Below are positions 10,560-59,793 of a DNA stretch of 64,000 nt, one piece after another (positions within the stretch are counted from its first letter, which is position 1; each line of letters opens with the position of its first letter). The notes below the pieces were generated by a model, which saw nothing but the letters and a program-made list of their open reading frames with translations, ran no database searches and had not been told where the DNA came from. The translations under genes and the position numbers were made by a program. The stretch comes from Arctopsyche grandis (taxonomy: Eukaryota > Arthropoda > Insecta > Trichoptera > Hydropsychidae): NCBI RefSeq assembly GCF_051622035.1, contig NC_135355.1, positions 39,413,986 to 39,477,985 on the forward strand, in the 5' to 3' direction.

Positions 10560-10847
10560 GGCTCCAGAATGGCAGTAAGTTTCTAACCAGAGAAGCAAAA
10601 AGCGGAATCTGGAATCACCGTCTCCAGAGTCACGAATCAAACTAAAAAAAGATACTCGACGCTTACTCAACACTGCAATGATCAAGAATTCCCATCACAG
10701 AAAAAGAAAACAAACCCCCACCAATATTTTTATATGGGATTAAAGATATAACCAAAATGATAGAGCTATTCGAAACAGCAACAAATAAGGAGGACTTTTC
10801 TATAAAGTCCACCACAAAAAACCAAATCATAATAACTAACCTGTAGA
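10560..10847 (+). pseudogene. Jockey LINE B, N-terminal ORF1 fragment
   Basis: In one frame the sequence encodes NKPPPIFLYGIKDITKMIEL and TTKNQIIITN, the N-terminal ORF1 region also seen at 5324-5669. It stops at about 10847, where the CR1-like LINE begins, and picks up again at about 12438. Confidence 0.65.
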
Positions 10848-12437
10848 GACTAACCTGCTTAATTTCACTACTACTCTCACATCTTATATGGACAAACGAA
10901 TCCAAATAGACGTCGTTTATACGGATTTCTCTAAAGCTTTTGATAAAATCAATCACAACCTATTACTCAATAAACTTTGGTCCCTCGGAATCCGAGGAAA
11001 TTTATTTCGTTGGATCTCTTCGTATATACTAAATCGTCACCAAATCATAATTCTCAATGGTTTTAGATCATCACTTAGACATATTCCTTCCGGTGTCCCA
11101 CAAGGGTCGCATTTAGGTCCCTTATTCTTTTTACTCTATATTGATGATATCTCATACATCTTCAAACATTCCTTTATACTTCTTTACGCTGATGATTTAA
11201 AAATTTACAAACCTATATACACCATAGACGATTTTCATAAGATACAAGAAGATCTAGATAGATTCTCTATATATTGTTTAAATAATGATCTTTTTATTAA
11301 TCTAGAAAAATGCTCTATTTTAAATTTCACTAGAAATAAGTCAATTATTACTAATCAATATCAATTAAATCATTCAATCCTTAACACGTCATCTTCTATT
11401 AAAGATCTTGGTGTAATACTCAATAATAAACTAGATTTCTCTGAACATATTTCTTTTATTACCAACAAAGCATTTAAATCTCTTGGATTCCTACTCCGCT
11501 CAACAAAACCCTTTAATGATCCTTATGTACTAAAATTACTTTATTTTTCCTTTGTAAGGTCTCGCCTTGAATTTGCCTCAATTATCTGGTCACCTTTTTA
11601 TTTATCCCATATTAATTGTATTGAGAAAGTTCAACTTAAATTTATTAAATCCTTACGCTACCTTTTTCCTACCTATACCCATTCTACTGTTTCCGACATT
11701 TTAAAAATCCTTTCTTTTAACAATCTTTCTGTCAGGCGACGACATACTGATGCTATATTCTTCTTTAAGCTCATAAATGGTTTCCTTGATTGTTCTGATT
11801 TACTGAATAAGGTTAATTTCAGAATCCCAGTTCGATACTCTAGACGCGTTGCACTCTTTTCACTTGATCCTTTCAATACTAATTCCCAAAAATATTTTTA
11901 TCTGCAGCGCGTTTATCGTATGTTTAACGGAGAGCTGAATGAGGTTGATCTGTTTGGTATTTCCCTACATCAATTCAGGTCTAACATCAAGAGAATCTTG
12001 ACCAATTGATTCATTTTTTCTCCTATTCTATTTTTCCAATATTTCCATTATTTTTATACTTTAGTTTAGTTATGTAATGTGCTATTTAATCATATTATAG
12101 CTTTCATTCTTTTCCTTTTCATTTATTTATTTTGTATTTACCTTTTTCATTTGTTTTATATTTGTAAATTTCAATTTCTTCTTATATTCTATCTTATAAC
12201 CTTTTCCAAATATTTTAATATTATAGTTTAATTATGCAATGTACTACATATTTTGTCATGCCTTTATTCTTTACTTTTTAATTTGTTTTCCTTATATTTA
12301 TCTTTTTCATTTTTGTAAAAATCTATTATTGGACTCGGATGTTACATATATTATTTATTTACTTTTTGTTTTTTTTATACCTATCTCTGTACATCCTGTC
12401 TGTTGATTTTTCAATTAATAAAATAAAATAAAATAAT
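10848..12437 (+). mobile_element. CR1/Jockey-group LINE inserted in Jockey B, 5'-truncated
   Basis: A 373-residue open frame (10888-12009) covers most of a reverse transcriptase: FSKAFDKINHNLL, GVPQGSHLGPLFF, and the catalytic LYADDLKIY, then a long C-terminal region. A T-rich 3' UTR of about 410 bp follows, ending in a (AAATA)n-type tail at 12417-12437. The endonuclease is missing, so the copy is dead despite the clean frame. A second, shorter copy at 56219-57267 is almost identical. The clade (CR1, Jockey or a relative) is not certain from reading alone. Confidence 0.85.
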
Positions 12438-20555: not shown

Positions 20556-21429
20556 TGTAGGAATCTCGTCATCGTCATCGTCATCGAAACATTCGAGAAT
20601 ATTCCACAACAACAAACCACATTCCTCGCAGAACTCACCACACAACACGTGCACTTCTTGGAATCAATCGCCAGTTCCTTCGAGAATGTTCCACCCCTCA
20701 CACTCGAGCGGAACGAAACCCAGACGACGCACACCTGCAGCCATTATATTAAACTCAAGCGGAACGGTGCCATATCCAACTCAAGCGGAACGGTGCCAAA
20801 TCCTTCGAGAATTTTCCACCCCTCACACTCGAGCGGAACGAAACCCAGACGACGCACACCTGCAGCCATTATATTAAACTCAAGCGGAACGCCCCTACCA
20901 GTCGAGCGGAACCAAAACGGTTGAAACACGCCGCCACCATTAAACTACATCGAGCGGAACGGCGCCAATCATTCCAGAAAATTCTACCCCTCGACAAAAG
21001 CGCATTCCTCGCTTACGCATCAACAACCACCACCATTGGTCAGGTGATTCCAGAAACACTATAAAAGGAGGTACAACCCAAACAACGCCAGTCGACCCAC
21101 AGCAGCAAGCGTCGACACACAGCAGCAGACCAGAGACCTTCTGAACATAGCCGAACGACGAGCCAACAACACACTGCCGCATCCAGAGACCTTCTGAACA
21201 TTGCCGAACGACGAGCCAACAACACACTGCCGCATCCAGAGACCTTCTGAACATAAACGAATGCCGAGCCAGCGACACTCTACCATATCCAGAGACCGCT
21301 GAACGCCATACTTTTGCCCAAATATAATACCTTTGTACAACCATAGGCAAACAATAAAACTTTATAAAACAAGCACAACAGTGTTTCGTTAGGCTGGGAT
21401 ACGGTCAACACTCCAGTACCCCGCCTACA
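20556..21429 (+). mobile_element. Solo LTR, family 1 (Ty3/Gypsy, CsRn1-like), in the RTE copy
   Basis: The LTR starts TGTAGGAATC and ends CCCCGCCTACA. It is flanked by the 4-bp target repeat AGGT (20552-20555 and 21430-21433). It contains internally repeated segments with the words TCGAGCGGAACG and CATCCAGAGACC, and a U5-like end shared with the LTRs at 43382-44174 and 61661-62308. It is a fossil left by recombination between two LTRs. Confidence 0.85.
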
Positions 21430-23265: not shown

Positions 23266-24255
23266 TTATATTGTGTATTTATCTACAATAACCATCAGAA
23301 GCGATTCAAACAGATATCTGGAGGGTCGAATCTGGCTCCTAAATACGTAATCTTGCAAATGCAATGCAAATGATTCGCGACTTGAGCCGACGTGACGATT
23401 CATCTTCCGTTTGGCTCGCATCAACATCATCTCAATGTTTTGCGTGTGCAATTCCCGATTATTCGGGTCCACCAAGTTGTTTTCGGCACCCATAAACGAA
23501 TGCGTGTATATTCCATTCGCAATGTGCGGAATGTTTCCGTACGCTGCCCAACCGTCCGAAATTATGTTTGAACCGGGCAATATATGTCGGAGTATTTCAT
23601 CTTGCAGTGTATCCGCAGCGCAGTTCGGAACCGCAACCAAGAAACGCTTTCCAACAGCGCCGTTTTCCAGTCTCTCGATTCCGCCGAACACCCAGTGACC
23701 TTCGGGCTGCTGGCTCTGTCGGTGTTCACCGCGGAAGAAGTACGACTCGCCGATCTCTACAATCACCGGTTGAAAGTTCTCGTCTATCCCTCCGATTGCA
23801 CCGGCACGTCTTTGATTCTTCTCGAACTCCTCCCGAATAACGTTGCATATATCAGCGGAATCCTCTTCGCTGACACCTAATTGAGTCACTGTTTCGTTTT
23901 GCAGATCTTCGCACCAATAATGCATTACAACTATGATTGTACGCAGCGGCAAATCCCTCCCGTCGAAAAATGACTCGGATCGGATGGACTTTCGAAAGTT
24001 GCACTCTTGCAAGTTGCATTCCCATCTGTAGCCGTCAATAATTTGAGCACATTCCAACAATGATGCGGGTTCACCGCATACGCTGCAGAGACGACTGTTC
24101 TTAATCAGTCCGCGTTTCGCCAACCACTCTATGCACATTCCACTTTCGCCTAAAACCACACATAATTCAGGCGATGACCACTTCTCGTACAATATGTCTT
24201 TCCTATCCATAAGCTTGTTCACTATTTTATTACAGAGTTTCCATACACTTGTCAT
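23266..24255 (-). CDS. Merlin-type DDE transposase (ISXO2-like), open frame of 329 residues
   Basis: The frame is uninterrupted from ATG at 24255. The N-terminal part has a Cys pair zinc-binding-like region (CSVCGEPASLLEC and CNLQECNF, residues 57-86). The ISXO2-like nuclease domain covers about residues 150-300: IGGIDENFQ with the first catalytic Asp, SYFFRGEHR, HWVFGGIER, ISDGWAAYGNI with the second Asp, and HTQNIEMMLMRAKRKM with the last acidic residue. Merlin elements are eukaryotic relatives of IS1016/IS1595. It would cut and paste its own ends. The frame looks intact, but terminal repeats and a target duplication were not located, so activity is unknown. A decayed relative lies at 44680-44960. 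Confidence 0.88.
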   Translation of the reverse strand: MTSVWKLCNKIVNKLMDRKDILYEKWSSPELCVVLGESGMCIEWLAKRGLIKNSRLCSVCGEPASLLECAQIIDGYRWECNLQECNFRKSIRSESFFDGRDLPLRTIIVVMHYWCEDLQNETVTQLGVSEEDSADICNVIREEFEKNQRRAGAIGGIDENFQPVIVEIGESYFFRGEHRQSQQPEGHWVFGGIERLENGAVGKRFLVAVPNCAADTLQDEILRHILPGSNIISDGWAAYGNIPHIANGIYTHSFMGAENNLVDPNNRELHTQNIEMMLMRAKRKMNRHVGSSRESFALHLQDYVFRSQIRPSRYLFESLLMVIVDKYTI

Positions 24256-24650
24256 GTTAATTCTTTTAGGTTATATTCAATTTCAAAAAGGGCCTGAGTC
24301 GAGAAATTCTAAAGCCTAGTCGCGAACAAGAAGGCCTCGAGGGTTTTCTTTTGGTTTATGTGTCAAAACAGCGTGTGCTTTGACGTAAGATTCAACGTAT
24401 TTGACATATCAGTGTAGCCAGTGTTAAAAAAAAAACGGTTAAATTTCTCGAGAATAATAATTTGGTAATTGGATTGGAGCGCACATTGTGATCGCTCAAA
24501 AGACAATTTTTGGCCCTCGAGTTCTCGTTAGTATGATAGTTATTTGTTTTATCTTTTTTCAAGATCGCAAGTTTGTCTCAGCGCATAGGGGTTTCTGATT
24601 TGTTTTGTTTTATACTGAACGTTTGTTTTATACAAGATTGCTAATGGTAT
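24256..24650. other. Flank of the Merlin gene, likely element end
   Basis: The stretch includes TTAAATTTCTCGAGAATAAT (24449-24468), shared with other Merlin-related fragments in the window. No gene is seen. Confidence 0.4.
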
Positions 24651-25594: not shown

Positions 25595-26145
25595 GGTAAC
25601 CGGTTATTGTATGTACGAAGAGGTTTCTTCGGAGATGTGATCTAGTTGAACTCCAGAGGTTCACTCTGGTGTTGGGACTGGCGTATCACTTTATATACCT
25701 TCTGGCTTGAAGCGTGTCGTGTGCATATCTTTTGTTCTTCGGTTCCCGGATACACGTGTTTGACCTTATGGAGAGCAGGCGATTGATTGAAACGCGGTGT
25801 TCGGCTTCGGAAAACAATGTTTATTGGTTCAGGTACAGCGAGTGTGGGAGACGAGAGAGGTGTTGTCGGTTGCGAGGTCCGAAGGGAAGAGATAGCTTCC
25901 CGTGACGCGCTGACCGCCCTCGGGGCGAAAACACCTCCGTTTACGGCCAGCCTTTGGGGTTGCCACAATACTCCCCCCTTAGCCTTGGCGATACCACTTA
26001 GCTGGTACCCCAGCGTTACAGACGAAATAATGTCTTACAGTCACAGAAGCAAAATAATATTACAGTTACTTCCGACCTCTCTCGTGTTCTTTCTCTTGGT
26101 ATCATACAAGTGTATCAAAAAATGCATGTGGACCACGAATGTACA

Positions 26146-26325
26146 CACATAAGTAAACTAAAATACACATCAGTACAACATAAGTAAATCGAATACACAT
26201 CAGTACAACATAAGTAAACTAAAATACACATCAGTACAACATAAGTAAACTAAAATACACATCAGTACAACATAAGTAAACTAAAATACACATCAGTACA
26301 ACATAAGTAAATCGAATACCCATAC
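26146..26325. repeat. Tandem repeat, about 31-bp unit, five to six copies
   Basis: The unit contains ACATCAGTACAACATAAGTA followed by AACTAAAATAC or ATCGAATAC. It sits in the 3' non-coding part of the LTR-element fossil. Confidence 0.9.
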
Positions 26326-29224: not shown

Positions 29225-31771
29225 TTAAATACCCATATCTAATAAGTGTCGTTTCATATGTTTTCCTAGCAAATAATTATTTGAAAAGCATTTAGAGCAC
29301 ATTTCACATTTCGACGGCTTCTCACCAACGTGACGTTTCATGTGAGATCTTAATTCACTCTCGTTAACGAAACGCTTCAAGCATATTGGACATTCGAATG
29401 GTTTTTCTCCGGTGTGACGTTTCATATGCACAATTAAGTTTCTATTGTTTACAAAACATTTCGAGCAAGTTTCACACTCGAATGGTGTTTTCAAAGTGTG
29501 ATGTTTCATGTGTCGTCTCAGCAAAAGATTGCTTGCAAAGCGTTCAGAGCATATTTTACAATTCAGTTCTGTTTCTGAGATGTGACGTTTCATATGCTGT
29601 TCTAATTCACTTTTCCTTACGAAACATTTCGAGCATATGTCACATTCGAATGATTTTTCTCCAATGTGACGCTTTAAATGAATTTTTAACTCAATGTCTC
29701 TTACGAAGCATTTCGTGCATATTTCGCATTTAAATGGCATTTTCCCAGTGTGACGTTGCATATGTTGTTTGAACCCACCATTAGTTAAAAAACATTTCGA
29801 GCACAATTCACATTTGAATAGAGTTTCCCCAGTGTGACGCTGCATGTGTTGTTGAAGTTCGCCATTGTTTAAGAAACATTTTGAGCATATTTCACACTTG
29901 AATGGTTTTTCTCCAATGTGACGTCTCACGTGGATTCTTAATTCACTCTTACTAACAAAACGTTTTGCACACATTGCACACTCGAATGGTTTTTCTCCGG
30001 TGTGACGCTTCATATGCACATTTAAGTTACGGTTGGTTACAAAACGTTTCGAGCAGATTTCACATTTGAACGGCGTTCTCAGAGTGTGTCGTTGCATATG
30101 TTCTTTAAGTTCGTAATTGCCTAAAAAACATTTGGAGCATATTTCACATTTGAACGGTTTTTCTCCAGTGTGACGTTTTAAATGTTTTCTTAAGGCGTCG
30201 TATATTACAAAACGTTTTGAGCATATTGTACATTCGAATGGTTTTTCTCCAGTGTGACGTTTCATATGTACCTTTAAGTTTCGATTGGTTACAAAACATT
30301 TCGAGCAGATTTCACATTTGAATCGGGTTTTCAATGTGTGACGTTTCATATGTTTTCGTAACAAAACATTGCTTGAAAAACGCTCCGAGCATATGTTACA
30401 ATTCGATTCTGTTTCTACAGGGTGACATTTCATATGCTCTATTAATTCACTTTTCCTTACAAAACATTTCGAACATGTTTCACACTTGAACGGCTTTTCT
30501 CCAGTGTGACGCTTCAAATGTATTTTCAGCGCATCTTCAATTACAAAACATTTCGAACATATTGTACATTCGAATGGTTTTTCTCCAGTGTGACGTTTCA
30601 TATGCACGTTCAAGTTTCGATTGGTTGTGAAACATTTAGAGCAGATTTCACATTTGAATCGTGTTTCCAAACTGTGACGTTTCATATGTTGTCTCAGCAG
30701 AAGATTGCTTGTAAAACGTTCCGGGCATATTTTACAATCCAATTCTGCTTCTTCTATGTGACGTTTTACATGCTCTCTCAATTCACTTTTCCTTACAAAA
30801 CACTTTGAACATATATCACATTCATATGGCTTTTCTCCAGTGTGACGTTTTAAATGGATTTTCAACGCGTTTTCAATTACAAAACGTTTTGAACATAATG
30901 TACACTGAAACGGTTTCTCTCCGTTGTGACGTTGCATATGTACATTTAAGCTTCGATTAGTTGTAAAACATTTTAGGCACATTTTACATTTGAATCGTGT
31001 TTCCAAGCCGTGACTTCTCATATGTTGTCTCAGCAGAAGATTACTTGTAAAACGTTCCGAGCATATTTTACAATTCAATTCTGTTTCCTCAGTGTGGCGT
31101 TTCATATGCTCTCCCAATTCGATTTTCCTTAGAAAGCATTTCGAGCATGTCTCGCATTTGAACGGTTTTTCTCCGGAGTGACGTTTTAAATGGATTTTCA
31201 ATGCATCTTCAATCACAAAACGTTTTGGGCAAATTGTACATTCAAATGGTTTTTCGCCTGTGTGACGTTTCATATGTACATTCAAGTTTCTATTCGTTGC
31301 AAAACACTTCAAACATATTTCACATTTGAATCGTGTCTTCAAAGTGTGACATTTCATATGTTCTCTCAATAAAAGATTGCTAGTGAAATGTTCCGAGCAT
31401 ATTTTACAATTCAACTGCTTTTCTCCAATGTGACGTTTCATATGCTCTCCTAGTTCAATTTTCCCTACAAAACATTTCAAACACAATTCACATTTGAATG
31501 GTTTTTCTCCAATGTGGCGTTTTAAATGTTTTCTAAGTGCGTCGTAGATTACAAAACGTTTTGAACATATTGTACATTCGAATGGTTTTTCTCCAGTATG
31601 CCGTTTCATATGTACATTTAAGTTTCGATTGGTCGCAAAACATTTAGAGCAGATTTCACACTTGAAACGTGTTTCCAAACTGTGACGTTTTATATGTGTT
31701 GATAATTTTGTATTATACAAGTAGCATCCGTCTGAAGTTTTACTTATGTGGTCAGTTTTTTTATTATCCAG
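29225..31771 (-). CDS. ZAD-zinc-finger gene 1, exon 3: array of about 29 C2H2 fingers
   Basis: The exon begins after an acceptor (tttcag, then CTGGAT at 31771) and ends with TAA at 29225-29227, giving 848 residues. Together with 32896-33177 and 33252-33401 the protein would be about 992 residues. I count 29 fingers of the form Cx2C-x12-Hx3H joined mostly by TGEKPF linkers. Fingers 1-16 repeat a four-finger unit, with recognition helices near NRNLNV, I.DALKI, RKSEL and SNLLLR, four times; fingers 17-19 begin a fifth. Such arrays bind DNA, and the ZAD mediates dimer formation, so a nuclear DNA-binding regulator is expected. The target is unknown. Confidence 0.93.
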   Translation of the reverse strand: MDNKKTDHISKTSDGCYLYNTKLSTHIKRHSLETRFKCEICSKCFATNRNLNVHMKRHTGEKPFECTICSKRFVIYDALRKHLKRHIGEKPFKCELCLKCFVGKIELGEHMKRHIGEKQLNCKICSEHFTSNLLLREHMKCHTLKTRFKCEICLKCFATNRNLNVHMKRHTGEKPFECTICPKRFVIEDALKIHLKRHSGEKPFKCETCSKCFLRKIELGEHMKRHTEETELNCKICSERFTSNLLLRQHMRSHGLETRFKCKMCLKCFTTNRSLNVHMQRHNGEKPFQCTLCSKRFVIENALKIHLKRHTGEKPYECDICSKCFVRKSELREHVKRHIEEAELDCKICPERFTSNLLLRQHMKRHSLETRFKCEICSKCFTTNRNLNVHMKRHTGEKPFECTICSKCFVIEDALKIHLKRHTGEKPFKCETCSKCFVRKSELIEHMKCHPVETESNCNICSERFSSNVLLRKHMKRHTLKTRFKCEICSKCFVTNRNLKVHMKRHTGEKPFECTICSKRFVIYDALRKHLKRHTGEKPFKCEICSKCFLGNYELKEHMQRHTLRTPFKCEICSKRFVTNRNLNVHMKRHTGEKPFECAMCAKRFVSKSELRIHVRRHIGEKPFKCEICSKCFLNNGELQQHMQRHTGETLFKCELCSKCFLTNGGFKQHMQRHTGKMPFKCEICTKCFVRDIELKIHLKRHIGEKSFECDICSKCFVRKSELEQHMKRHISETELNCKICSERFASNLLLRRHMKHHTLKTPFECETCSKCFVNNRNLIVHMKRHTGEKPFECPICLKRFVNESELRSHMKRHVGEKPSKCEMCSKCFSNNYLLGKHMKRHLLDMGI

Positions 31772-32895: not shown

Positions 32896-33177
32896 CGTTG
32901 AATCTTTCTCTTCTTCTAGTGAAAGCTTGTCGGTATCAATACTCCTTTTCTTTAGATTACAATTCATCGATCGCACTTCACTGTCTTCGCCGAATTTGTC
33001 CTCACAAACGAAATCGTCAAGTAAAACTTCCTCCACTTTAATATCCACACATTCGATAGATTTCCGTCTCATCTTTTCATCACTCTGTTTACAAATCTTT
33101 TTAAATTGAGCGAGCAATTTCAAGTTGCATTCACAGGATGAGCACATTGCATGGGGCAGTCCATCGTGTTTTCTCAC
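32896..33177 (-). CDS. ZAD-zinc-finger gene 1, exon 2: second half of ZAD and acidic linker
   Basis: After an acceptor (ctag) at 33178-33179 the exon starts VRKHDGLPHAMCSSCE, giving the second Cys pair of the ZAD and its long helix (LLAQFKKICKQSDE). An acidic linker follows with IKVEEVLLDDFVCED. The donor is ACG/gtaata at 32896/32895. Length is 282 bp in phase 0. The same exon occurs in genes 2, 3 and the relic at 45202-45522. The 1,124-bp intron downstream carries the piggyBac MITE 32031-32544. Confidence 0.9.
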
Positions 33178-33251: not shown

Positions 33252-33401
33252 TTGTAGTTGACAGCAGTGTGAGATGAGTCGCTGCGCTTCCAGAGACTCT
33301 GAATTGGAATGGAAGATGGAAATGGAAGATTCAACTGGAACTGAACATAGGCAAAGTCGACAAGTCTGCGTCTCGTCTGGAACAAACTCGGCCCAGGACA
33401 T
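33252..33401 (-). CDS. ZAD-zinc-finger gene 1, exon 1: start and first Cys pair of ZAD
   Basis: The frame opens MSWAEFVPDETQTCRLCLCS and ends LISHCCQLQ before a gtcaga donor. CRLC is the first zinc-binding pair of the ZAD. Genes 2 and 3 start directly at M(M)TCRLCLCS, so the ten extra residues here are unusual: the position of their Met is a Gln codon (CAG), and translation must begin upstream. The exon is 50 codons, phase 0, followed by a 74-bp intron. Confidence 0.82.
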
Positions 33402-35648: not shown

Positions 35649-36562
35649 ATGGTGTAGGCGGGGTAGCGATGTGTTGACCGTATCCCGGCCTAACGAAACA
35701 TAGCCGAACAACGAGCCAGCAACACACTGCCGCATCCAGAGACCTTCTGAACATAGCTGAATGCCGAGCCAGCGACACTCTACCATATCCAGAGACCGCT
35801 GAACGACATACTTTTGCCCACAAATACCATACCTTTGTACAACCATAGGCAAACAATAAAACTTTATAAAACTAGCACAGCAGTGTTTCGTTAGGCCGGG
35901 ATACGGTCAACACATCGCTACCCCGCCTACATTGGTGACCCCGACGTGATCTACGCAACCTTCTGATCATCCAACAGCGCTGTCAACACACATGTACCCC
36001 GCCTACATTGGTGACCCCATCTTAGAACTACGCAGCCTTCATAGCAGTCAACAGCGCAGTCAACACGGCAGCCCACAGTGCAGCCTCCACAACAACCAAC
36101 AGCCGCCACGACAGCAGTCAACAGCGCAGCCTACATAGCAGCCCACAGTCGACCCACAGCAGCAAGCGTCGACATACAGCTCCTGACCAGCCACCACTAC
36201 ACTACGCGGACTTGGAAGATCAACCAGCCGGACGAGCCAGCAACACACTGCCGTATCCAGAGACCTTCCGAACATAGCCGAACAACGAGCCAGCAACACA
36301 CTGCCGCATCCAGAGACCTTCTGCACATAGCCGAACAACGAGCCAGCAACACACTGCCGCATCCAGAGACCTTCTGAACATAGCTGAATGCCGAGCCAGC
36401 GACACTCTACCATATCCAGAGACCGCTGAACGACACACTTTTGCCCACAAATACCATACCTTTGTACAACCATAGGCAAACAATAAAACTTTATAAAACT
36501 AGCACAACAGTGTTTCGTTAGGCCGGGATACGGTCAACACATCGCTACCCCGCCTACAATGG
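35649..36562 (+). mobile_element. Composite LTR-derived element (family 1) with tRNA-Trp-type primer site
   Basis: The unit 35653-36558 is flanked by the 4-bp repeat ATGG (35649-35652 and 36559-36562). Its first 48 bp are a perfect inverted copy of the LTR end at 35884-35931. An LTR end (CCCCGCCTACA, to 35931) is followed by TGGTGACCCCGACGTGA, complementary to the 3' end of tRNA-Trp, as in CsRn1-clade Gypsy elements. A second LTR end with a similar primer-site start lies at 35995-36030. Repeats of about 60 bp (AGCCAGCAACACACTGCCGC) follow, then the final LTR end. It has no protein frame and looks like a rearranged, non-coding derivative. Confidence 0.8.
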
Positions 36563-39236: not shown

Positions 39237-41258
39237 TTAACGCATATGAAGTTTCATGTGTTTTATTAAAATAGCATTTCTAGAAAAATATTTTGAGCAT
39301 ATTTCACACTTGAATGGTTTTTCCCCGGTATGGGATTTCGCATGGATTCCCAATTCACTATTGCTTACGAAACATTTCGAGCACATTTCACATTTGAACG
39401 GCTTCTCACCCGTGTGACGTCTCATGTGAATTATGAATTTATCATTTTGTACAAAGCGTTTCGAGCATACGTCACATTGGATTGGCTTTTCTTCGGTGTG
39501 GCGATTCATATGTTCAGTCAAGCTGCCGTTGCTTATGAAAGCCTTCGAACATATTTCGCAATTGAACGGTTTTTCGCCGGTGTGGCGTCTCATATGAATC
39601 ACCAATTCACTATCGCTGACGAAGCATTTGGGGCATATTTTGCACTCGAACGGCTTTACATCGGTGTGATGTTTCGTATGTAGCATTAAGCCCCTCTTGG
39701 TGAAGAAGCGCTTGGGGCATATCTCACATTTGAACGGCTTTTCCCCAGTGTGGCGGCTCATGTGGGTTGTTAGTTCGTTATTGTTAATGAAACATTTGGA
39801 GCATACTTCACATTTGAATTCCGTTTCCCCAATGTGACGTTTCATGTGAAGTACTAATTCACTGTTCTTGACAAAGAACTTGGTGCATATTTCACATTTG
39901 AATCGTTTCTCGCCGATGTGGCGTTTCATATGTGCTTTGAAGTCACAATTGCTTACGAAGCACTTGGAGCATATCTCACATATGAATGGTTTTTCCCCAG
40001 TGTGGCGTCTCGTATGAATTTTTAAGTCACTTTTTCTCACAAAACATTTTGGACATATTTTACATTTGAATGGTTTGTCACCGTTGTGACGCATCATGTG
40101 AATTTTGAATTTATCATTTTGTACGAAACATTTAGAGCATACTTCACATTGGAACGGCTTCTCTGCAGTGTGGTGCTTCATGTGAACCAACAATTCGCCG
40201 GAGCTCGTGAAAAATTTGAAGCATATATCACATTTGAATGATTTAAGACCAGTATGGCGTTTCATATGGTTTCCCAATTCACTCTTGCTTGTGTGCATTT
40301 TTGAACAGACTTCACATTTGAATGGTTTTTCTCCGGAGTGACGTCTCATATGAATGGTCAACTCTCTCTTTTGTATAAAACCTCTTAAGCATATTTCGCA
40401 TTTGAACGGTGTATTCCCAGTGTGACGTTTTATATGTTCAATCAAACTATTAGATCTAGCAAAACATTTTCCGCATATTTCACACTTGAATTGTTTCTCA
40501 TCGGTGTGACGTCTGACGTGAGTTTTTAATTCACCTTTGGTTACAAAACGTTTTGAGCATTCTTCACATTCGAATGGTTTTTCTCCAGTGTGACGTTCCA
40601 CATGTCGCATCAAGCCTTTGTTGGTTCTTAGACATTTGGAGCAGATTTCGCATTTGAATATTTTTTTTTCATCGTGACGTCTTACATGAAGTGCCATTTC
40701 TCTATTGTTTACAAAATAGTTGGAGCAAATTTCACATTTGAATGGTGATTCCTCAGTGTGACGTTCCTTGTGTACTTTAAGGTCGCTATTTTTCATAAAA
40801 CATTTTGAGCATATTTCACATTTAAAAGGTTTATCCCCGGTATGACGTTTTCTATGAATCGCTAATTCATCATTGCTTAAAAAACACTTTGAGCACGTTT
40901 TACATTCGAATAGTATTTCATTAGTGTGACGTTTCATATGTATTTCTGATTTTCTATCACTTATGAAACATTTTGAAGATTTTTTCAATTTGTCCGATTT
41001 CAAATTCTGATGAACATTTATAAGATATTTCGCACATATGTCACGTTCATGGTCACTCAATTTATTGATATAATTTATGCCCTTAATCAGTCCACTATTG
41101 CACATCAAAATGTGTGATATCAATTCAGATTTATTGATGAAAACAATTCCACAATGGTCACATTCATATTTGGAATTATTAGAGTTGCAAACATCTAAAT
41201 TTGTCTTTGTTAGAAAAAGTTTCGAAGGAATTTCATCTTTCTTTATGAAGTTTTCCAG
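39237..41258 (-). CDS. ZAD-zinc-finger gene 2, exon 3: array of 20 canonical C2H2 fingers
   Basis: The exon starts after a ttccag acceptor with CTGGAAAAC (41258) and ends with TAA at 39237-39239, 673 residues. The first part has an isolated finger YECDHCGIVFINKSELISHI that matches the single finger of the relic at 45657. A half finger without its Cys pair (KCFISDRKSEIHMKRH) follows, then 20 regular fingers with TGEKPF-type linkers. One finger (SKMHTSKSELGNHMKRH) is shortened around its Phe. With exons 42546-42854 and 42936-43052 the protein is about 815 residues. A nuclear DNA-binding regulator is expected; the target is unknown. Confidence 0.93.
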   Translation of the reverse strand: MENFIKKDEIPSKLFLTKTNLDVCNSNNSKYECDHCGIVFINKSELISHILMCNSGLIKGINYINKLSDHERDICAKYLINVHQNLKSDKLKKSSKCFISDRKSEIHMKRHTNEILFECKTCSKCFLSNDELAIHRKRHTGDKPFKCEICSKCFMKNSDLKVHKERHTEESPFKCEICSNYFVNNREMALHVRRHDEKKIFKCEICSKCLRTNKGLMRHVERHTGEKPFECEECSKRFVTKGELKTHVRRHTDEKQFKCEICGKCFARSNSLIEHIKRHTGNTPFKCEICLRGFIQKRELTIHMRRHSGEKPFKCEVCSKMHTSKSELGNHMKRHTGLKSFKCDICFKFFTSSGELLVHMKHHTAEKPFQCEVCSKCFVQNDKFKIHMMRHNGDKPFKCKICPKCFVRKSDLKIHTRRHTGEKPFICEICSKCFVSNCDFKAHMKRHIGEKRFKCEICTKFFVKNSELVLHMKRHIGETEFKCEVCSKCFINNNELTTHMSRHTGEKPFKCEICPKRFFTKRGLMLHTKHHTDVKPFECKICPKCFVSDSELVIHMRRHTGEKPFNCEICSKAFISNGSLTEHMNRHTEEKPIQCDVCSKRFVQNDKFIIHMRRHTGEKPFKCEMCSKCFVSNSELGIHAKSHTGEKPFKCEICSKYFSRNAILIKHMKLHMR

Positions 41259-41339
41259 CTGGAATATATAAAAATAAAAAGATTACTATGTGATTTAATA
41301 ATGCGGTGACAATAGGAAACATTTAATGTGCTGTATAGT

Positions 41340-42444
41340 ATTATAAAGTTGCTACTCCGCTAGATTGAGCATCATAACCAACTCAAAATACGTAAGAGAA
41401 TCATGGAATTTCGAAAATTTATCCTAAATTAAGACAATTTTGAACTTATGTTTGTTATCAGTTGCATATTTTGTATAATAGGCTCATTTTCAGCATGTCC
41501 CGATGATAATATGACAATTTCTTAGCTCTTGGCTAAGCAAAAATGAAATATATGGCTACATTTTACAAAAGAGTATTGAAGTTGGATTTATCAAAATAAA
41601 AAAAAGGATATTTCTATTAAAAATCTTAAAAATTTTTAATCCAACAGTTGATACTATTTTGCCTCGAAGCATTTGTTATTTGATTATTAAATTCAATACA
41701 TATTAGAAAGCTGCTACTCTGCTAGATTGGACATCATAATCAATTCAAAATACGGAAGAAAATCATGGAATTTCGAAAATTTATCCTGAATCAAGATAAT
41801 TTTGAACTTATGTTTGTTATTAGTTGCATATTTTGTATAATAGGCTCATTTTCAGCATGCCCCGATGATATATAAGATAATATAACAATTTCTTAGCTCT
41901 TGGCTAAGCAAAAATGAAATATATGGCTATATTTTACAAAAGAATGTTGAAGTTGGATTTATCAATATAAAAAAAAAGGATATTTCTATTAAAAATCTTA
42001 AAAATTTTCAATCCAACAGTTGATACTATTTTGCCTCGAAGCATTTGTTATTTGATTATTAAATTCAATACATATTAGAAAGCTGCTACTCTGCTAGATT
42101 GGACATCATAATCAATTCAAAATACGGAAGAGAATCATGGAATTTCGAAAATTTATCCTGAATCAAGATAATTTTGAACTTATGTTTGTTATTAGTTGCA
42201 TATTTTGTATAATAGGCTCATTTTCAACATGTCCTGATGATATATTAGATTATATATCCATTTCTTAGTTTTTCGGTAAGCAAAAATGAAATATATGGCT
42301 ATATTAAACAAAAGGCTTTTCAACTTGGTTTTATCAAATTACAAAAAAAAGATATTTCTATTAAAAATCTTCAATATAATGGTCGATACTATTTTGCTTC
42401 GAAGCATTCGATATTTGATTATTAACTTCAATACACATTGGAAG
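41340..42444. repeat. Tandem triplication, about 360-bp unit, in intron 2 of zinc-finger gene 2
   Basis: Three copies start near 41345, 41707 and 42079 (marker GCTGCTACTCTGCTAGATTG at 41710 and 42082). The first two periods are about 362 and 372 bp. All share TTTGAACTTATGTTTGTTAT and CTTGGCTAAGCAAAAATGAA. Copies 2 and 3 are more alike than either is to copy 1. The unit has no recognised coding part. Confidence 0.92.
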
Positions 42445-42545
42445 ATTTTGAGTTTGAGACAGCGTAGCACTAAAAAAGTTGTGCAATTTCAAACAAGCAA
42501 AAGAAAAGTGCTGTGCAAGAATACGATAAAAACAAATTGCATTAC

Positions 42546-42854
42546 TGTCAATTCTTTTCTTTCTTGCATTGAAAACTTGTCGTGGTTCGGATGTTCCTCT
42601 GGGTTATAATTCTTTGGTATTATTTCATTCTCTTCATCGTTGGCGAGATTGCATAGCTGTGAATTAGAGTCACTCTTCCAATCTAAATCGTCCAGTATCA
42701 CTTCCTCCACTTTAATACCATTAAAACAATCCATGGATCTCTGTCTCGCTTTTTCGTCACTCCGTCTAGAGGTATTTTTGAACTGAGCGAACAGTGCCAA
42801 GTTGCGTTCACAAGACGAACACATTGTATGGGACAGTCTGTCATGCTCTCTCAC
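42546..42854 (-). CDS. ZAD-zinc-finger gene 2, exon 2: second half of ZAD and acidic linker
   Basis: The exon starts VREHDRLSHTMCSSCERN after a ttacag acceptor and ends ELT before a gtaatg donor, 309 bp in phase 0. CSSC is the second ZAD Cys pair; IKVEEVILDDLDW is the conserved acidic segment. The intron downstream is 1,287 bp and mostly filled by the triplicated repeat. Confidence 0.9.
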
Positions 42855-42935
42855 CTGTAATGAAAATATATATCCAGTAAAATATAGTGCAATTGGAGCT
42901 CATTTTGACACATTCACTGGGTAGGAGTTTCTGAC

Positions 42936-43052
42936 TTGCAAGTGACAGCAGTTCAAGATAAGTTCCTGTAGATTCAGAGACTCGGAATTCCCATAAATGG
43001 GAACGGAGCATTCAGCTGGAACGGAACACAGGCAAAGACGGCACGTCATCAT
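42936..43052 (-). CDS. ZAD-zinc-finger gene 2, exon 1: start of ZAD
   Basis: It reads MMTCRLCLCSVPAECSVPIY and ends LNCCHLQ before a gtcaga donor; 39 codons, phase 0. The frame joins exon 2 as LQ-VREHD. Two adjacent ATG codons (43052 and 43049) could both start. The 81-bp intron that follows is standard for this family. Confidence 0.88.
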
Positions 43053-43306
43053 GTCATACAATGCTTAGTTTATCTCGACCCTGGAAATAGAGCTTTGACA
43101 GCTGACAGCGGTAACCAGACCGGCTAACACAACCAAGAATACAAAATGAACACAATACAAATTGTACATACAAATTTTTTTTTTTTGGGACAAAATTAGT
43201 TTAAAAATCTCTACGCGTTCGATATTTATTGTATATAATAAATGAAATTGATTTATTACAAAAAATAATTTTTGACTCCCTAAGCATTGACCATGGTAAT
43301 TGGACT

Positions 43307-44398
43307 TGTTTAGACCAATTGTCTGATGGTCGGCTTTCGTGGCCTTACGACCCATGAGCTGGCCGATGTTTTTTGTACTGGTGTAGGCGGGGTAGGAAGT
43401 GTTGACCGTATCCCAGCCTAACGAAACACTGTTGTGCTTGTTTTAAGTTGTTTTATTGTTTGCCTAAATATTGTACAAGTGTATTAGAATATTTGAGGAA
43501 GTTTTCTCGAAGCGGCTATTGGCTGTTGACTTGGTGTCGTGATGGCCGCTGGATCTGCAATGTGTCGTTGCTCTGGATCCGGCTATGTTCAGATGTCTCT
43601 GGATATGGCAGTGTGTTGCTGGCTCGGCATTCGGCTATGTTCAGAAGGTCTCTAGATATGGTAGAGTGTCGCTGACTTGGCATTCGTCTATGTTCAGCAA
43701 GTCTCTGGATACGGAAGGGTGTTGCTGGCTCGTTCGGCTGGTCCGCTGCTGTGTGTCGAATCTTGTTGCTGTGGGTCGACTGGTCTGCTGCTGTGTGTCG
43801 ACGCTTGTTGCTGTGGGTCGACTGAAGTTGTTTGGGGTGGACCTCCTTTTATATTGTTTTTGGGCATCACGTGACTCGTCGCAGATAGTGTTTATGTGTG
43901 CGAGGAATGTGGTTTGTCGATTAGGGTGGACGTTTCTCGAATGTTTGGCGCCGTTCCACTCGATTTAGTTTAATGGCTGCAGGTGTTCTTCGATTTCGTA
44001 TCGTTCCGCTCGGCTTGTTGGGGCGGAATATGCTAGAATGTTTGGCGCCGTTCCACTCGATTTAGTTTAATGGCTGCAGGTGTTCTTCGACTTCGGGTGA
44101 CGTCAATGGTTGAGCGTGAGAAATGTATTCTCCGTCGCAGTAGATGTCTTGATGACGGTGACGAGATTCCTACACTGGCAACACTGGTGTGGCCAACACC
44201 TCACTCCCGCTCCAACCGTCGCCGCTTGAACACTGCTTCTAAGCGGCGCGTTTCCTCGATCCCGAATCACCAGTTCGAGACTGGTGATGTTTGACGATAC
44301 TTAGAGACCAGCTCCAGTATTCGTCCGGGGTGTATTGAGGAAGCCTGGTCTGTCTTCGCCCCGAAGGCAGACAACTCAGATACGCGTGCTTGGTGCAA
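43307..44398 (+). mobile_element. LTR family 2 copy, partial, split by a family 1 solo LTR
   Basis: The pieces 43307-43381 (from TGTTTAGACCAATTGTC) and 44175-about 44398 belong to one LTR of the family at 27614 and 34165. The middle, 43382-44174, is a younger insertion. The 3' end of the family 2 LTR is missing. It is a broken fossil. Confidence 0.78.
43382..44174 (-). mobile_element. Solo LTR, family 1, nested in LTR family 2
   Basis: On the minus strand it runs from TGTAGGAATC (44174) to CCCCGCCTACA (43382). CTGG flanks it on both sides (43378-43381 and 44175-44178). The internal repeats and U5-like end match the copies at 20556-21429 and 61661-62308. Confidence 0.88.
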
Positions 44399-47527: not shown

Positions 47528-50500
47528 TAGCGCTGAGATAAGAGTGGTGATGAGTGAATCCGTGGTAAGTTTCACTCTATAAAATGTCACACAACACTAT
47601 GACGGTCTCAGGTCAGCGGCGAGTAAGTGCCGCCGCTTAACAAAAGCACAACCCGGTTTTGAAAGGTACCGTAACACCTTTCATAGAGAAGGAAACTCCA
47701 TAAAAAAATTCCCTGGCAGTGGGCAGCAGCTCTGTCAGTACCATCCACGGCGGAAGTATATGCAATATACTAAAACGGCAAAAGATGGAAGATTCAAAGC
47801 GACGTGGCAGCCACTCAATCGGTTTGAATTCTGCGGAGCAGAAGGTTTGGGGAAAACTACTGTGCTCTCATATCCCTAGTATAACCACCATGAAGAGAAA
47901 ACCTAAAACCACGGCCCCGAGTCTCCGGCGTCCCTTCAATGGGACAGGGGTGCTAAGAATCCCCGGACTCAAAGTGGTGAACATACGAAAAATTGGTACA
48001 TGGAACGTTAGGACCATGTATCAAGCAGGTAAAATTGAAAATCTGCAAATAGAAATGAAAAAAAACCAAATACAGATGCTCGGCATAAGCGAAGCTAGAT
48101 GGCCTGGAGCAGGAAAAACGATGCATTGCAATGGATATACGACTTACTACTCGGGATCGCTTGACGGCACTCATAAGAATGGTGTTGCTGTGATTCTGGA
48201 AGACGACATCAGTAAAAGTGTGAGAAACTTTATTCCGTTATCTGAACGAGTCATGATGATACAATTAGCAGGAAAACCTATAAATGTTAACATAATACAA
48301 GTGTATGCCCCCACTTTTGATAAAGAAGAAAATGAGATTGAAGAATTTTATCAACAAATCAAAGAATTGATGACATATACGAAAAAACATGATGTTAACA
48401 TTATAATGGGAGATTTCAACGCCAAAGTTGGAGACGAAGAAACAATGGGTATAACTGGTCGCTTCGGACTTGGAGAAAGAAATGAGAGAGGAGACAGACT
48501 AGTTCAGTTTTGCCAGGAAGAGCAGTATGTTATCTTGAATACTTTCTTTAAGCTACCTAAAAGAAGATTATACACATGGAAATCCCCAATGGACTGTCCT
48601 GATAATATTGTGCGAAACCAAATTGACTTTATTTTGATAAACAGTAGATTTAAAAATAGTATAAAATCGGTGAAAACCTACCCTGGTGCAGACGTGGCAT
48701 CCGATCATAATCTACTTTGTGGGAAATTGAAGATAAGACTGAAAAAGATTTTAAGAGCATCAAAACCTAAACCAAGATTGGATTTAGAGCTGCTTAAAAA
48801 TCTTACGATCCACGAACAATTTACAAAAGATCTCAATAAAAATTTTAAACAAAAATGTATTGAAGAAAATAGTAATGTAAACATAAAGTGGGAAGGTATG
48901 AAATCAGCAATGACCCAATCTGGGAAAAAGTTTCTTGAAACAAATCAAATAATTAATAAAAAACAACCTTGGATGACGGATGAAATTATACATTTAATGG
49001 AAGAACGTAGAAAACACAAACATAATAATCCAACACAATATAAAAATATTCACCGCCAAATTCAAAGGAAAATTAAAGAAATCAAAGAAAAATGGATGGA
49101 AAATAAATGTAACGAAATTGAAAAATTACAAGAAAAACACGACGAATTTAACGTACATAAAAAACTAAAAGAAGCAACAGGATCATTCAGAAAAAAAGAT
49201 TTCATACTCCTTAGGAATAAAGATGGAAAAATCATTTTAAATATGGATGAGAAGAAATCAGAATGGACCGAGTACACAAAATTGCTCTTTAAAGACAATA
49301 GAGAAACCGGAGGGCATATTGAAGATCCAGAAACGGGACCATATATATTGAAATCCGAAGTGGAACATGCTATAAAACTAGCAAAGAGTCGGAAAGCTAC
49401 TGGACCGGATCTGATTCCTGCCGAATTTCTCAAGTTATTGGACGACGATAACATAGAAAATCTAACAAAACTCTATAATAAAATATATTTATCAGGCGAA
49501 GTACCTAGCGATTGGTTACAATCCATATTTATCCCGTTGCCCAAAAAGAGTAACGCGAGGACGTGTAGCGACTTCAGAATAATTAGCCTAATGAGTCACA
49601 CATTGAAGATCCTACTAAAGATAATACAGGGCAGAATTTACTCACGGTGTGAAGAGGCGATTAGCAGAGAGCAGTTTGGGTTCAGACAAGGCTTGGGTAC
49701 CCGAGAGGCCCTTTTCTGTATGAAAACACTACTCCAAAGATGCAGAGAAGTCCGTAAACCTGTGTACATCTGCTTTATAGACTTTGAAAAGGCCTTTGAC
49801 CGTGTCCAACACGCTCGCCTGATGGAAACATTAAAAAATATTGGCCTGGATGACAGAGATGTCAGATTGCTACGAAATATTTATTGGAATCAGACTGCAG
49901 TAGTACGTGTCGATGATCAATTCACTGATGAGATTCCTATAGAACGGGGCGTCAGGCAAGGATGCATCCTATCACCTACTCTTTTTAACACCTACACCGA
50001 ATCCATCTTCCACGATGCTCTCCAAGAGGCGGAGGGCATCAAGGTGGGCGGCGAGACGATCACCAATATAAGATATGCTGATGACACGGCACTAGTCGCT
50101 GAAAATTTAGCAGACCTGCAAAGATCTCTAGACCGTGTACATCAAGAAAGCAATCGAAGAGGTCTGCGCATAAATCTAAAGAAAACAAAATTTATGATAG
50201 TAGATAGAATGCAAACAGACACCGGGAATCTAACCTTGGATGGAGAGGTGATAGAAAGAGTAAAAAGATTCAAATACCTGGGTACCTGGCTGAATGAAGA
50301 GATGGACCCAGATGAAGATCTAAAAATCCGCATCGAGATGGCTAGAACATCATTTGTACAAATGAAGGCGGCCCTTACAAACAAGCATCTCAATCTTCAT
50401 ACGCGGTTGAGATTCGCGAAGAGCTACGTCTGGACAGTATTACTACACGGATGTGAGACGTGGACTCTGAAAACCAAGATGATCAGCCGCATTGAAGCTT

Positions 50501-50873
50501 TTGAGATGTGGGTCTATAGGCGTATGCTGAAGATTCCGTGGACCAAAAAGATATCAAACGAAGCTGTCCTCGGCATGATGGGGAGAGGCAGGGAACTTGT
50601 TTCTGTCATCAAGCGGAGAAAGATGGAGTACCTCGGACACATGATACGGGGTCCAAAATACGAATTTCTCCGTTTGATAACCATGGGGAAAATAGAAGGA
50701 AAAAAATGGATTGGCAGGAAAAAGTTATCTTGGCTTCGAAACATGCGCATGTGGACCGATATGAGCGCCGAAGAGCTGTTCCGAGCCGCTGAAGACCGAT
50801 GCGGATATATTCAAATAATCGACGAGGTGGTCGCCAACGTCCGGATGCGGACAAGGCATTAACAAGAAGAAGA
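47528..50873 (+). mobile_element. RTE-clade LINE, full length and apparently intact, with 10-bp target duplication
   Basis: The element is 3,346 bp between copies of AGTGGGTAGG (47518-47527 and 50874-50883). It has a 5' UTR of about 190-260 bp, one long ORF, almost no 3' UTR and an ACAAGAAGAAGA tail. Insertion into a SINE is shown by the SINE resuming on the right. The short tail, clean duplication and open frame point to a recent insertion. Confidence 0.92.
47785..50862 (+). CDS. RTE LINE ORF2: endonuclease-reverse transcriptase
   Basis: I take the first in-frame ATG at 47785, giving 1,025 residues; the open frame extends upstream to 47719 without an ATG. The apurinic-type endonuclease covers about residues 70-310: GTWNVRTMYQAGK, GISEARW, QVYAPT, IIMGDFNAKVG, NQIDFIL, ASDHNLL, all expected motifs. 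The reverse transcriptase covers about 530-800: FIPLPKK, FGFRQGLGTREAL, FIDFEKAFDRV, GVRQGCILSP and the catalytic RYADDTALVA. The C-terminal part has HGCETWTLK and RKKLSWLRNM. The protein nicks target DNA and copies its RNA there. No stop or frame break is seen. Confidence 0.93.
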   Translation: MEDSKRRGSHSIGLNSAEQKVWGKLLCSHIPSITTMKRKPKTTAPSLRRPFNGTGVLRIPGLKVVNIRKIGTWNVRTMYQAGKIENLQIEMKKNQIQMLGISEARWPGAGKTMHCNGYTTYYSGSLDGTHKNGVAVILEDDISKSVRNFIPLSERVMMIQLAGKPINVNIIQVYAPTFDKEENEIEEFYQQIKELMTYTKKHDVNIIMGDFNAKVGDEETMGITGRFGLGERNERGDRLVQFCQEEQYVILNTFFKLPKRRLYTWKSPMDCPDNIVRNQIDFILINSRFKNSIKSVKTYPGADVASDHNLLCGKLKIRLKKILRASKPKPRLDLELLKNLTIHEQFTKDLNKNFKQKCIEENSNVNIKWEGMKSAMTQSGKKFLETNQIINKKQPWMTDEIIHLMEERRKHKHNNPTQYKNIHRQIQRKIKEIKEKWMENKCNEIEKLQEKHDEFNVHKKLKEATGSFRKKDFILLRNKDGKIILNMDEKKSEWTEYTKLLFKDNRETGGHIEDPETGPYILKSEVEHAIKLAKSRKATGPDLIPAEFLKLLDDDNIENLTKLYNKIYLSGEVPSDWLQSIFIPLPKKSNARTCSDFRIISLMSHTLKILLKIIQGRIYSRCEEAISREQFGFRQGLGTREALFCMKTLLQRCREVRKPVYICFIDFEKAFDRVQHARLMETLKNIGLDDRDVRLLRNIYWNQTAVVRVDDQFTDEIPIERGVRQGCILSPTLFNTYTESIFHDALQEAEGIKVGGETITNIRYADDTALVAENLADLQRSLDRVHQESNRRGLRINLKKTKFMIVDRMQTDTGNLTLDGEVIERVKRFKYLGTWLNEEMDPDEDLKIRIEMARTSFVQMKAALTNKHLNLHTRLRFAKSYVWTVLLHGCETWTLKTKMISRIEAFEMWVYRRMLKIPWTKKISNEAVLGMMGRGRELVSVIKRRKMEYLGHMIRGPKYEFLRLITMGKIEGKKWIGRKKLSWLRNMRMWTDMSAEELFRAAEDRCGYIQIIDEVVANVRMRTRH

Positions 50874-57692: not shown

Positions 57693-58799
57693 CTATTTGT
57701 AGTGTGAAAGTTTCATATGTAAGCCCAAGCCGCAGATGCTTCCAAAATACTTATGACATATTTCACATTTGATTTTTGTTTCTACTTTGTAACATCTTAC
57801 GTGATCTTTCAGCACACGATCGCTCTTGAAACATTTCGAGCACGTTTCACACTCAAACGGTCTCTCACTAATATGATATTTCATATGAACTTCTAATGCG
57901 TCGTTACTCGTAAAACGTTCCAGACACGTTTTACATTCAAACGAATTGGCATGCCTTTCCATGTGAATTTTGAACGCGCTATCTTTAATATAACACTTTG
58001 AGCATATTTCACATTTGTACGTTTGTCGTTCGACGTGCTGTTTCATATGAATTTCCAACTCATCATTGGTCACGAAGGATCTCGGGCATTTTTCACATTT
58101 GAAGTGGGTTTCTCCAGTGTGCCGTTTCATATGTAGATTCAAACCGCAATTGCTTTCGAAATATTTGGGACATATTTCGCATTTGATTGTTGTCTCTACC
58201 GAGTAGCATCTTAAGTGATCTTTTGATAAACGTTTGGTTACAAAGTATTTCGGGCATGTTTCACACTTGAACGGTGTTACATTCATTCTACAATCGCATG
58301 GAAAATGCTTCCAGTATATTTGGGTACTGCCTAAACATTTTGAGCACGGTTTGTTTTGTTTGCCCTCGTGAATAATCATATGCTTTTTTAATTCACTTCT
58401 AGTTACGAAACATTTTGCACACGTGTCGCATTTGAATGGTTTTTCACCAGTGTGAAGTTTCATGTGTAGATTTAATTCGGTGTTTCTGACGAAGCTCTTT
58501 GAGCATATTGTACACTTGAATGGTTTCTCACTAGAGTGGCGTTTCGTGTGTACCTTCAGCTCTTTAATGCATACAAAATATTTTGGACAGAGTTTACATT
58601 TGAATGGTTTCTCGCCCTTGTGACGCCTCATGTGAGTTTCTACTTCTTCACTTTTTACGAAATACTTTGGGCATATTTCACACTTGAACGGGGTTTCTCC
58701 GGTGTGACGTCTCATGTGCTCTTTTAAGCCACGTTTGGTTACTAAATGTTTCGAACACATGTCACATTTGAAAGGCTCGTCAGCTTTTTTCATATCCTG
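57693..58799 (-). CDS. ZAD-zinc-finger gene 3, exon 3: about 12 C2H2 fingers
   Basis: The exon starts after a tttcag acceptor with CAGGATATG (58799) and ends with TAG at 57693-57695, 368 residues. Five regular fingers come first (SKHLVTKRGLKEHMRRH to AKCFVTRSELKKHMIIH), then a degenerate Cys-rich spacer (KPCSKCLG...CDCRMN). Two fingers end in RCY in place of the usual last His (KDHLRCY, KDHVRCY), each followed by an IKCEIC finger, so a two-finger module was duplicated. With exons 59794-60102 and 60183-60296 the protein is about 509 residues. A nuclear DNA-binding regulator is expected. Confidence 0.92.
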   Translation of the reverse strand, partial: QDMKKADEPFKCDMCSKHLVTKRGLKEHMRRHTGETPFKCEICPKYFVKSEEVETHMRRHKGEKPFKCKLCPKYFVCIKELKVHTKRHSSEKPFKCTICSKSFVRNTELNLHMKLHTGEKPFKCDTCAKCFVTRSELKKHMIIHEGKQNKPCSKCLGSTQIYWKHFPCDCRMNVTPFKCETCPKYFVTKRLSKDHLRCYSVETTIKCEICPKYFESNCGLNLHMKRHTGETHFKCEKCPRSFVTNDELEIHMKQHVERQTYKCEICSKCYIKDSAFKIHMERHANSFECKTCLERFTSNDALEVHMKYHISERPFECETCSKCFKSDRVLKDHVRCYKVETKIKCEICHKYFGSICGLGLHMKLSHYK

Positions 58800-58946
58800 C
58801 TGAAACGCAAGCAAAAAATTTGTATAAATATTAACATCATTAGACTAAACATCCGACAATTCAATCTCCATTTTGGTCAAATAAAACTTAATACAACATA
58901 AAGTGGCAACTTCAATACGTAATATTTGTACATTATTATTATTTAT

Positions 58947-59466: not shown

Positions 59467-59793
59467 GTTTGGACCATTGTGGCATCACAAGTCTCTAATG
59501 CGCCACAATGTTCGAAAAAATACAGAAAGATGCATTTATACATAATCATAAAAAACAATATCATTATAATAATAGCAGATACAGTAAAAATATCAAATAA
59601 TAAAATAAAAAGTGGTGAATATCTTGCATTTACGGCCAGCACCAATATATAAGAACTAGCCGCAAATACAAAACATCCCTGCGAGCACCAAATGGAAGAG
59701 AGAAGATCAAAATTCCACGAATACATCACATTAAATTATAAAAAGATAATGATGAGCGCAGGCTATCAGCCAAAAATAGGTTACATGTATTAC

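Follow-up and report, generated by a model that had tools for sequence, protein, structure and literature searches.

Long arrays of zinc fingers are commonly presented as targeting devices that change fast. Among the systems closest to the gene described here, the ZAD-ZNF proteins of insects, e.g. Kipferl, Nicknack and Oddjob of Drosophila, combine an N-terminal ZAD, a linker and C-terminal tandem C2H2 fingers, and their family is characterized by large expansion and neighbouring paralogues (PMC7655104, PMC9531945). The finger array of Prdm9 is a coding minisatellite, in which near-repeat fingers have grown by tandem duplication and in which variation in the mouse lies mostly at the contact codons −1, 3 and 6 (PMC3890296). 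Mammalian KRAB zinc-finger proteins have polydactyl arrays encoded by clustered genes; these arrays, contact residues included, are under strong purifying selection between orthologues (omega about 0.1), and duplication and deletion of fingers is known in polydactyl zinc-finger genes (PMC2865497). Both block-wise growth, in polydactyl genes generally, and purifying selection on contacts between orthologues are already known.

The gene analysed here shares the ZAD, the linker and the C-terminal fingers with the ZAD-ZNF proteins, but its 29 fingers form a four-finger higher-order repeat, of which the portions of PMC7655104 and PMC9531945 used here give no description. As in PRDM9, near-repeat fingers appear to have grown by tandem duplication; in contrast to PRDM9, the unit consists of four fingers, the copies look old, the contacts are held and the three scanned exons contain no match to a KRAB or SET domain. 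Compared with the KRAB proteins, a ZAD stands in place of the KRAB domain, and the copies that can be compared lie inside one gene rather than in orthologues. Among the papers listed in literature searches, no title or abstract opening names a ZAD gene with a higher-order block of four fingers, which is no proof of its absence.

Within the window, i.e. the whole 64-kb stretch of DNA that was analysed, this gene comprises three predicted exons (table 1). Joined in frame, ZAD exons 1 and 2 match PF07776 with 41.4 bits (E = 1.7e-10, cut-off 28), each of them singly staying below the cut-off, and the third exon, in which the zf-C2H2 and zf-H2C2_2 models score far over their cut-offs, joins in phase 0 at the TTTCAG before position 31771 (the GT/AG sites were read from the sequence by eye), which gives a predicted protein of about 992 residues (144 + 848). 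To judge from its sequence, the gene is an intact-looking member of the ZAD-C2H2 (ZAD-ZNF) family. Matches to BolA and Herpes_BLRF2 in the exons were taken as spurious, with no single stretch passing.

Table 1. Exons, finger blocks and neighbouring genes of the four-finger-block gene (positions within the window).
Feature	Position	Strand	Remarks
ZAD exon 1: start ATG, first half of zf-AD	33252..33401	(-)	14.7 bits alone; donor GT after 33252
ZAD exon 2: second half of zf-AD and acidic linker	32896..33177	(-)	19.8 bits alone; acceptor AG before 33177, donor GT after 32896
Terminal zinc-finger exon	29225..31771	(-)	848 codons + stop; 29 complete C2H2 fingers; acceptor TTTCAG before 31771
Degenerate finger 0, without Cys pair, then D-to-A type linker SLETRFK	31661..31732	(-)	Read from sequence
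Block 1, fingers 1-4, A B C D	31325..31660	(-)	
Block 2, fingers 5-8, A B C D	30989..31324	(-)	
Block 3, fingers 9-12, A B C D	30653..30988	(-)	
Block 4, fingers 13-16, A B C D	30317..30652	(-)	
Partial block 5, fingers 17-18, A B	30149..30316	(-)	Similarity matrices
Fingers 25-27, C D A run again	29393..29644	(-)	Type-specific linkers ISETELN, TLKTPFE
Second ZAD-C2H2 gene (gene 2)	39237-41282	(-)	Same strand as four-finger-block gene
Third ZAD-C2H2 gene (gene 3)	57693-58844	(-)	Same strand as four-finger-block gene

A PF07776 profile search of the genome gave at least 150 matches (150 of 150 scored over the cut-off, from 989 candidates), many of them half-domains, and the ZAD family is therefore large in this genome. 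Since half-ZAD frames at 42492-43064 and 59734-60311 precede the finger exons of genes 2 and 3, the window represents a cluster of three ZAD-C2H2 genes. A further finger stretch is found just beyond it (G000:C1:39479852-39480127), and the presumed intron of gene 2, between its ZAD frames and its finger exon, contains a 372-bp unit in three copies (41339-42443, 90% matches).

Along the terminal exon the fingers are evenly spaced at 28 residues. By their helices they can be assigned to four types, A (T-N-R-N-L), B (I-x-D-A-L), C (R-K-S/I-E-L) and D (S-N-L-L-L), and fingers 1-18 follow the order ABCD ABCD ABCD ABCD AB with a unit of 336 bp. Mean amino acid identity is 0.70 at lag 4 versus 0.50-0.55 at lags 1-3 and 5-7, with lags 8 and 12 also being raised; in 5000 shuffles of finger order the lag-4 signal reaches p = 0.0002 whether amino acids, nucleotides or contact residues are compared, by which a chance order is ruled out, and Tandem Repeats Finder reports a period of 336 with 4.9 copies at 30041-31697. 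A preliminary description had proposed just this fixed order of four types in fingers 1-16, with a unit of about 336 bp and a partial fifth block, which is now identified as the A-B pair of fingers 17-18. The periodicity it assigned to fingers 1-16 stands but is not confined to them, as the order recurs past finger 16, first in A-B and then in the C-D-A run of fingers 25-27. In between and beyond, finger 19 is weakly C-like, finger 20 is of the A type, and the helices are C-like in fingers 21 and 28 and B-like in finger 24. The degenerate finger before finger 1 and the ZAD exons upstream of the array had been missed.

The lag-4 signal was absent from gene 2 of the window, which served as a control (p = 0.27-0.83; contacts 0.83) and showed signals in its contacts at lags 8 and 11 (p = 0.009 and 0.001, uncorrected); in the second control, the 10-finger gene 3, it was weak in amino acids (p = 0.017) and nucleotides (p = 0.008) and absent in contacts (p = 0.15). 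In a tree of the fingers, types B (support 0.957), D (1.0) and, more weakly, C (0.73) each trace back to a single origin; the A types do not form one clade, with finger 9 standing apart and one finger of gene 2 placed inside. As read from these sequences, growth of the array seems best explained by tandem duplication of the four-finger unit. When the genome was searched with the protein sequence of the block, the gene's own copies matched with 77-100% identity over the full block, and the remainder of the same array gave partial matches of 65-76%; elsewhere, the best matches reached 55-56% over at least 88 residues, gene 2 of the window being top-scoring, and shorter ones up to 65% over 65 residues. 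No other genomic copy of the block was present among the 150 scored of 5259 candidates, a number at which a rare copy may be missed, and a search of viral contigs confirmed no relatives there.

The linkers are type-specific and repeat together with the fingers. Those from A to B and from B to C are canonical, i.e. TGEKP-like, and those beside D are non-canonical: the C-to-D linkers read IGEKQLN (the least non-canonical of the D-flanking linkers), TEETELN, IEEAELD and PVETESN, with ISETELN at fingers 25-26, and the D-to-A linkers read TLKTRFK, GLETRFK, SLETRFK and TLKTRFK, with TLKTPFE at fingers 26-27. Because of these linkers, each round can be described as a TGEKP-linked A-B-C triplet with a D finger set apart, the contact residues of which are hydrophobic (S, L and L at −1, 2 and 3). 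A structure model of two blocks has eight helices, one per finger and with both D fingers included, and its pLDDT falls below 50 only at residues 106-109 (D to A), at 192-194 (C to D) and in the last six residues; with a mean pLDDT of 70.9, a pTM of 0.31 and an alignment of four rows, however, this model is weak.

Block-wise growth as such is no special property of this gene. In a partial census of the genome (at least 48 array places noted, 30 loci and 22 stretches covered), 17 of the 33 array pieces with at least 10 fingers were periodic, the four-finger-block gene included, when p ≤ 0.005 was required in amino acids, nucleotides and contacts (1000 shuffles each, lags up to 12). Such growth is thus common in this genome, and the idea that it distinguishes the four-finger-block gene was rejected. 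Best lags among the 17 pieces were 3, 4, 5, 6, 8, 9, 10, 11 and 12 fingers, e.g. 8 in L048, 6 in L020/L014 and 5 in L009; L014 and L020 overlap in one gene, and L046 has its contact signal at a lag different from that of its amino acid and nucleotide signals. In L048 (G000:C6:33996000-34003000; 40 fingers, 8-finger period) 20 of the 32 best-matching lagged pairs are near-identical in DNA, as are 18 of 28 for L020 in L020/L014 (G000:C13:3764450-3771100; 33-34 fingers, 6-finger period), and by this likeness both are apparent cases of very recent block expansion.

What does set the four-finger-block gene apart from the other arrays examined in this genome is the combination of retained contacts with high silent divergence. 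Substitutions were compared in 14 of the 16 other passing pieces (L014 and the 12-finger piece of L039 being left out) and in the weaker L052 and L016, using lagged pairs chosen by best nucleotide match, which for the four-finger-block gene are 9 of 25; all of its 14 block pairs were also taken unpicked. Under the same rule, dS between lagged copies is 0.67 in this gene versus 0-0.53 in the 16 other arrays, i.e. lower in 16 of 16, with nine of them at 0.04 or less. Contact change per silent change is 0.18 (0.17 with all 14 block pairs), whereas it exceeds 1 in five of the 16 (L016 4.22, L002 3.87, L006 2.49, L017 2.38, L036 1.71) and lies between 0.45 and 0.93 in another five (L046, L019, L009, L004, L040), the remaining six showing too few changes to tell. 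With the 14 block pairs, contact versus silent changes give an odds ratio of 0.20 against the 16 arrays pooled (Fisher p = 6e-8) and of 0.28 against the four most silently diverged ones, L004, L040, L009 and L046 (p = 9e-5), and contact versus other non-core changes give 0.39 (p = 0.005) and 0.49 (p = 0.042), respectively, all of these p-values being too small because the copies compared share history. The four-finger-block gene thus contrasts with 16 other arrays that have the same mode of growth, in that its periodic code is kept while its silent sites have diverged far. At the other end of the range, the contacts of L016 (G000:C3:3932709-3937103) and L002 (G000:C7:8029742-8034658) change at roughly fourfold the silent rate, a suggestive pattern that would be that of positive selection, based on few changes and, in L016, on a weakly periodic array.

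Within the gene itself, the block copies look old and their putative DNA-reading residues look kept rather than changing. For the six pairs of whole blocks dS is 0.77-1.54 and dN/dS is 0.07-0.20, a comparison that strengthens the earlier statement that the contact residues are largely kept in each round. Identity at these residues (−1, 2, 3 and 6) is indeed 77% among fingers of one type (blocks 1-4 and the A-B pair) versus 1% between types, and their pN/pS is 0.17 within types versus 0.96 between types; a column bootstrap gives 0.22 within types (CI 0.10-0.38), and the values of 0.17-0.22 show no positive selection at the contacts among the repeats. Helix position 3 is constant within types (N, A, E and L) except in finger 9. 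At a dS of 0.77, an unconstrained site would be expected to have a pN of about 0.48 (Jukes-Cantor, by hand), as compared with the 0.105 seen.

Silent sites tell a different story from residues. At four-fold codons of shared residues the match is 0.63 at lag 4 (n = 79) versus 0.53-0.74 at lags 1-3 and 5-7, and codon choice at shared residues carries only a small type signal (difference 0.043, CI −0.017 to 0.108, permutation p = 0.12), as against a residue type signal of 0.434 that is the highest among the 17 arrays compared. In eight control arrays the codon-choice difference is 0.047-0.220, with every CI above zero; the 0.043 found here is near the value of the young control L002 (0.047, CI 0.012-0.089). 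Because silent sites have diverged far and codon choice carries little type signal, we conclude that it is chiefly in the protein sequence that the periodicity has survived. Silent sites still keep some memory of the blocks, i.e. they are not fully saturated, since pS is lower within than between types in five of five site classes and third-position identity in fingers 1-18 is 0.69 at lag 4 versus 0.54-0.59 at lags 1-3 and 5-7, a rise that is partly explained by shared residues. A low silent-to-residue ratio was dropped as a stand-alone mark of age, with the young arrays L031 (0.11), L030 (0.19) and L020 (0.26) also being low, and the age of the blocks therefore rests on dS.

What could such a conserved series of cassettes be for? 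ZADs mediate protein-protein contact. Taken together, the locus is probably an intact-looking ZAD-C2H2 gene of an arthropod, most likely an insect, in which a duplicated four-finger unit has been retained at the protein level, along with its contact residues; the units are presumed to serve as DNA-binding cassettes, with a role in chromatin. The array would bind DNA, with the A-B-C triplet and its TGEKP-like linkers acting as the repeated recognition cassette and the D finger, between its non-canonical linkers, acting as a spacer, a hinge or a weaker reader. Four to five equal A-B-C cassettes could confer multivalent binding of long residence to repeated subsites or, alternatively, could allow one subsite to be bound in several registers, and contact between molecules via the ZAD might strengthen multivalent binding. 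A role in chromatin or heterochromatin seems most likely by analogy with the studied Drosophila ZAD proteins and is favoured because Kipferl (PMC9531945) as well as Nicknack and Oddjob (PMC7655104) act at heterochromatin and piRNA loci. If orthologues confirm its age, the gene would lend itself well to asking whether a protein with repeated recognition units follows DNA that is repeated, too.

How many of the fingers take part in binding is a question of its own. Long finger arrays often use only part of their fingers, and a few fingers might suffice here, with the other blocks being maintained for reasons of length, solubility or protein contact and resembling one another through general constraint on fingers. 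Consistent with this, the D helix is hydrophobic, and constraint on contacts does not significantly exceed that on the remaining non-core positions within the same fingers (ratio 0.77, CI 0.32-1.42). General constraint on the fold is insufficient, however, because it would not make contacts 77% identical within types and 1% between types, and we regard this possibility as unlikely.

The preliminary description had also suggested, by counting three bases per finger, that the array might favour DNA with a 12-bp period. Stated fully, the array would read tandem-repeat DNA of about 12 bp, i.e. satellite or minisatellite DNA, with one block per repeat, and the periodic target would keep the blocks alike. 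The largely constant contacts at high silent divergence and the equal finger spacing throughout the blocks agree with this. Yet a figure of 12 bp per block is doubtful, as the hydrophobic contacts of D and its non-canonical linkers weaken the simple sum, and the D finger may not read the assumed three bases. Recognition-code preferences (E at 3 for C, R at −1 for G, N at 3 for A) predict the low-information motif CG-N4-A, which shows no excess at period 12 in the window, where 16 two-block matches were counted versus 14.6 expected and 0 three-block matches versus 0.15 expected. The same motif is in excess in its two-block form at period 11 in the window (32 versus 17.3 expected, sd 3.9), and its three-block form exceeds expectation there at period 10 (1 versus 0.15) and at periods 13 and 14 (2 versus 0.10). 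Tandem repeats with 12- and 24-bp units do occur, but in the window and the examined loci these are only short rows of two to five copies, and we found no support there for a 12-bp-periodic target such as a satellite. Moreover, block-wise growth alone needs no periodic target, because the 16 other array pieces have blocks of 3-12 fingers. Overall, a 12-bp target seems rather unlikely. A related proposal holds that long purifying selection keeps the cassettes of an old protein alike because its target is periodic as well (satellite DNA, a repeat linked to telomeres or centromeres, or clustered sites), so that the periods of protein and DNA would match; this must at present be considered quite doubtful.

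With DNA-binding cassettes as the preferred reading, the nature of the ligand has to be considered as well. C2H2 fingers can recognize RNA or protein surfaces, and a match to C2H2 models does not by itself reveal the ligand. Repeated cassettes that recognize RNA or a protein surface instead of DNA appear improbable, however, with TGEKP-like linkers at two of the four junctions per block and with ZNF568, CTCF, Aart, PRDM9 and ZBTB24, the chains of which bind DNA, as the best-matching solved chains for the fingers. A young coding minisatellite of the PRDM9 kind, homogenized through gene conversion and unequal crossing-over, in which constancy would mean recency and not selection, fits most of the other arrays compared, with their mostly minute dS, and would agree with close finger pairs such as 8 and 12 (94% of nucleotides) and the somewhat raised third-position identity at lag 4, but it is highly improbable for this gene and was rejected on the block dS, with four-fold sites of shared residues differing as much at lag 4 as at other lags and with fingers 2 and 18 sharing all 21 core residues at a difference of 10% in their 63 core bases, although the blocks have kept some silent memory.

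Around the gene cluster, the window contains further repetitive DNA, with no Rfam match at gathering scores anywhere in its 64 kb. A 53-bp tandem repeat occurs in four places (21115-21304, 35697-35804, 36232-36431 and, on the opposite strand, 43580-43732); its units look alike by eye and may represent the core of some dispersed mobile element. Next to this repeat lies a row of 24-bp units at 36031-36148, and a 31-bp tandem repeat is found at 26141-26311 (5.5 copies, 95%). Transposable elements surround the cluster with four frames, at 47704-50862 (+), 10840-12009 (+), 61117-61530 (-) and 23266-24270 (-), three of which have a reverse-transcriptase domain, accompanied by an endonuclease in 47704-50862, and one of which has an IS1595-type transposase domain.
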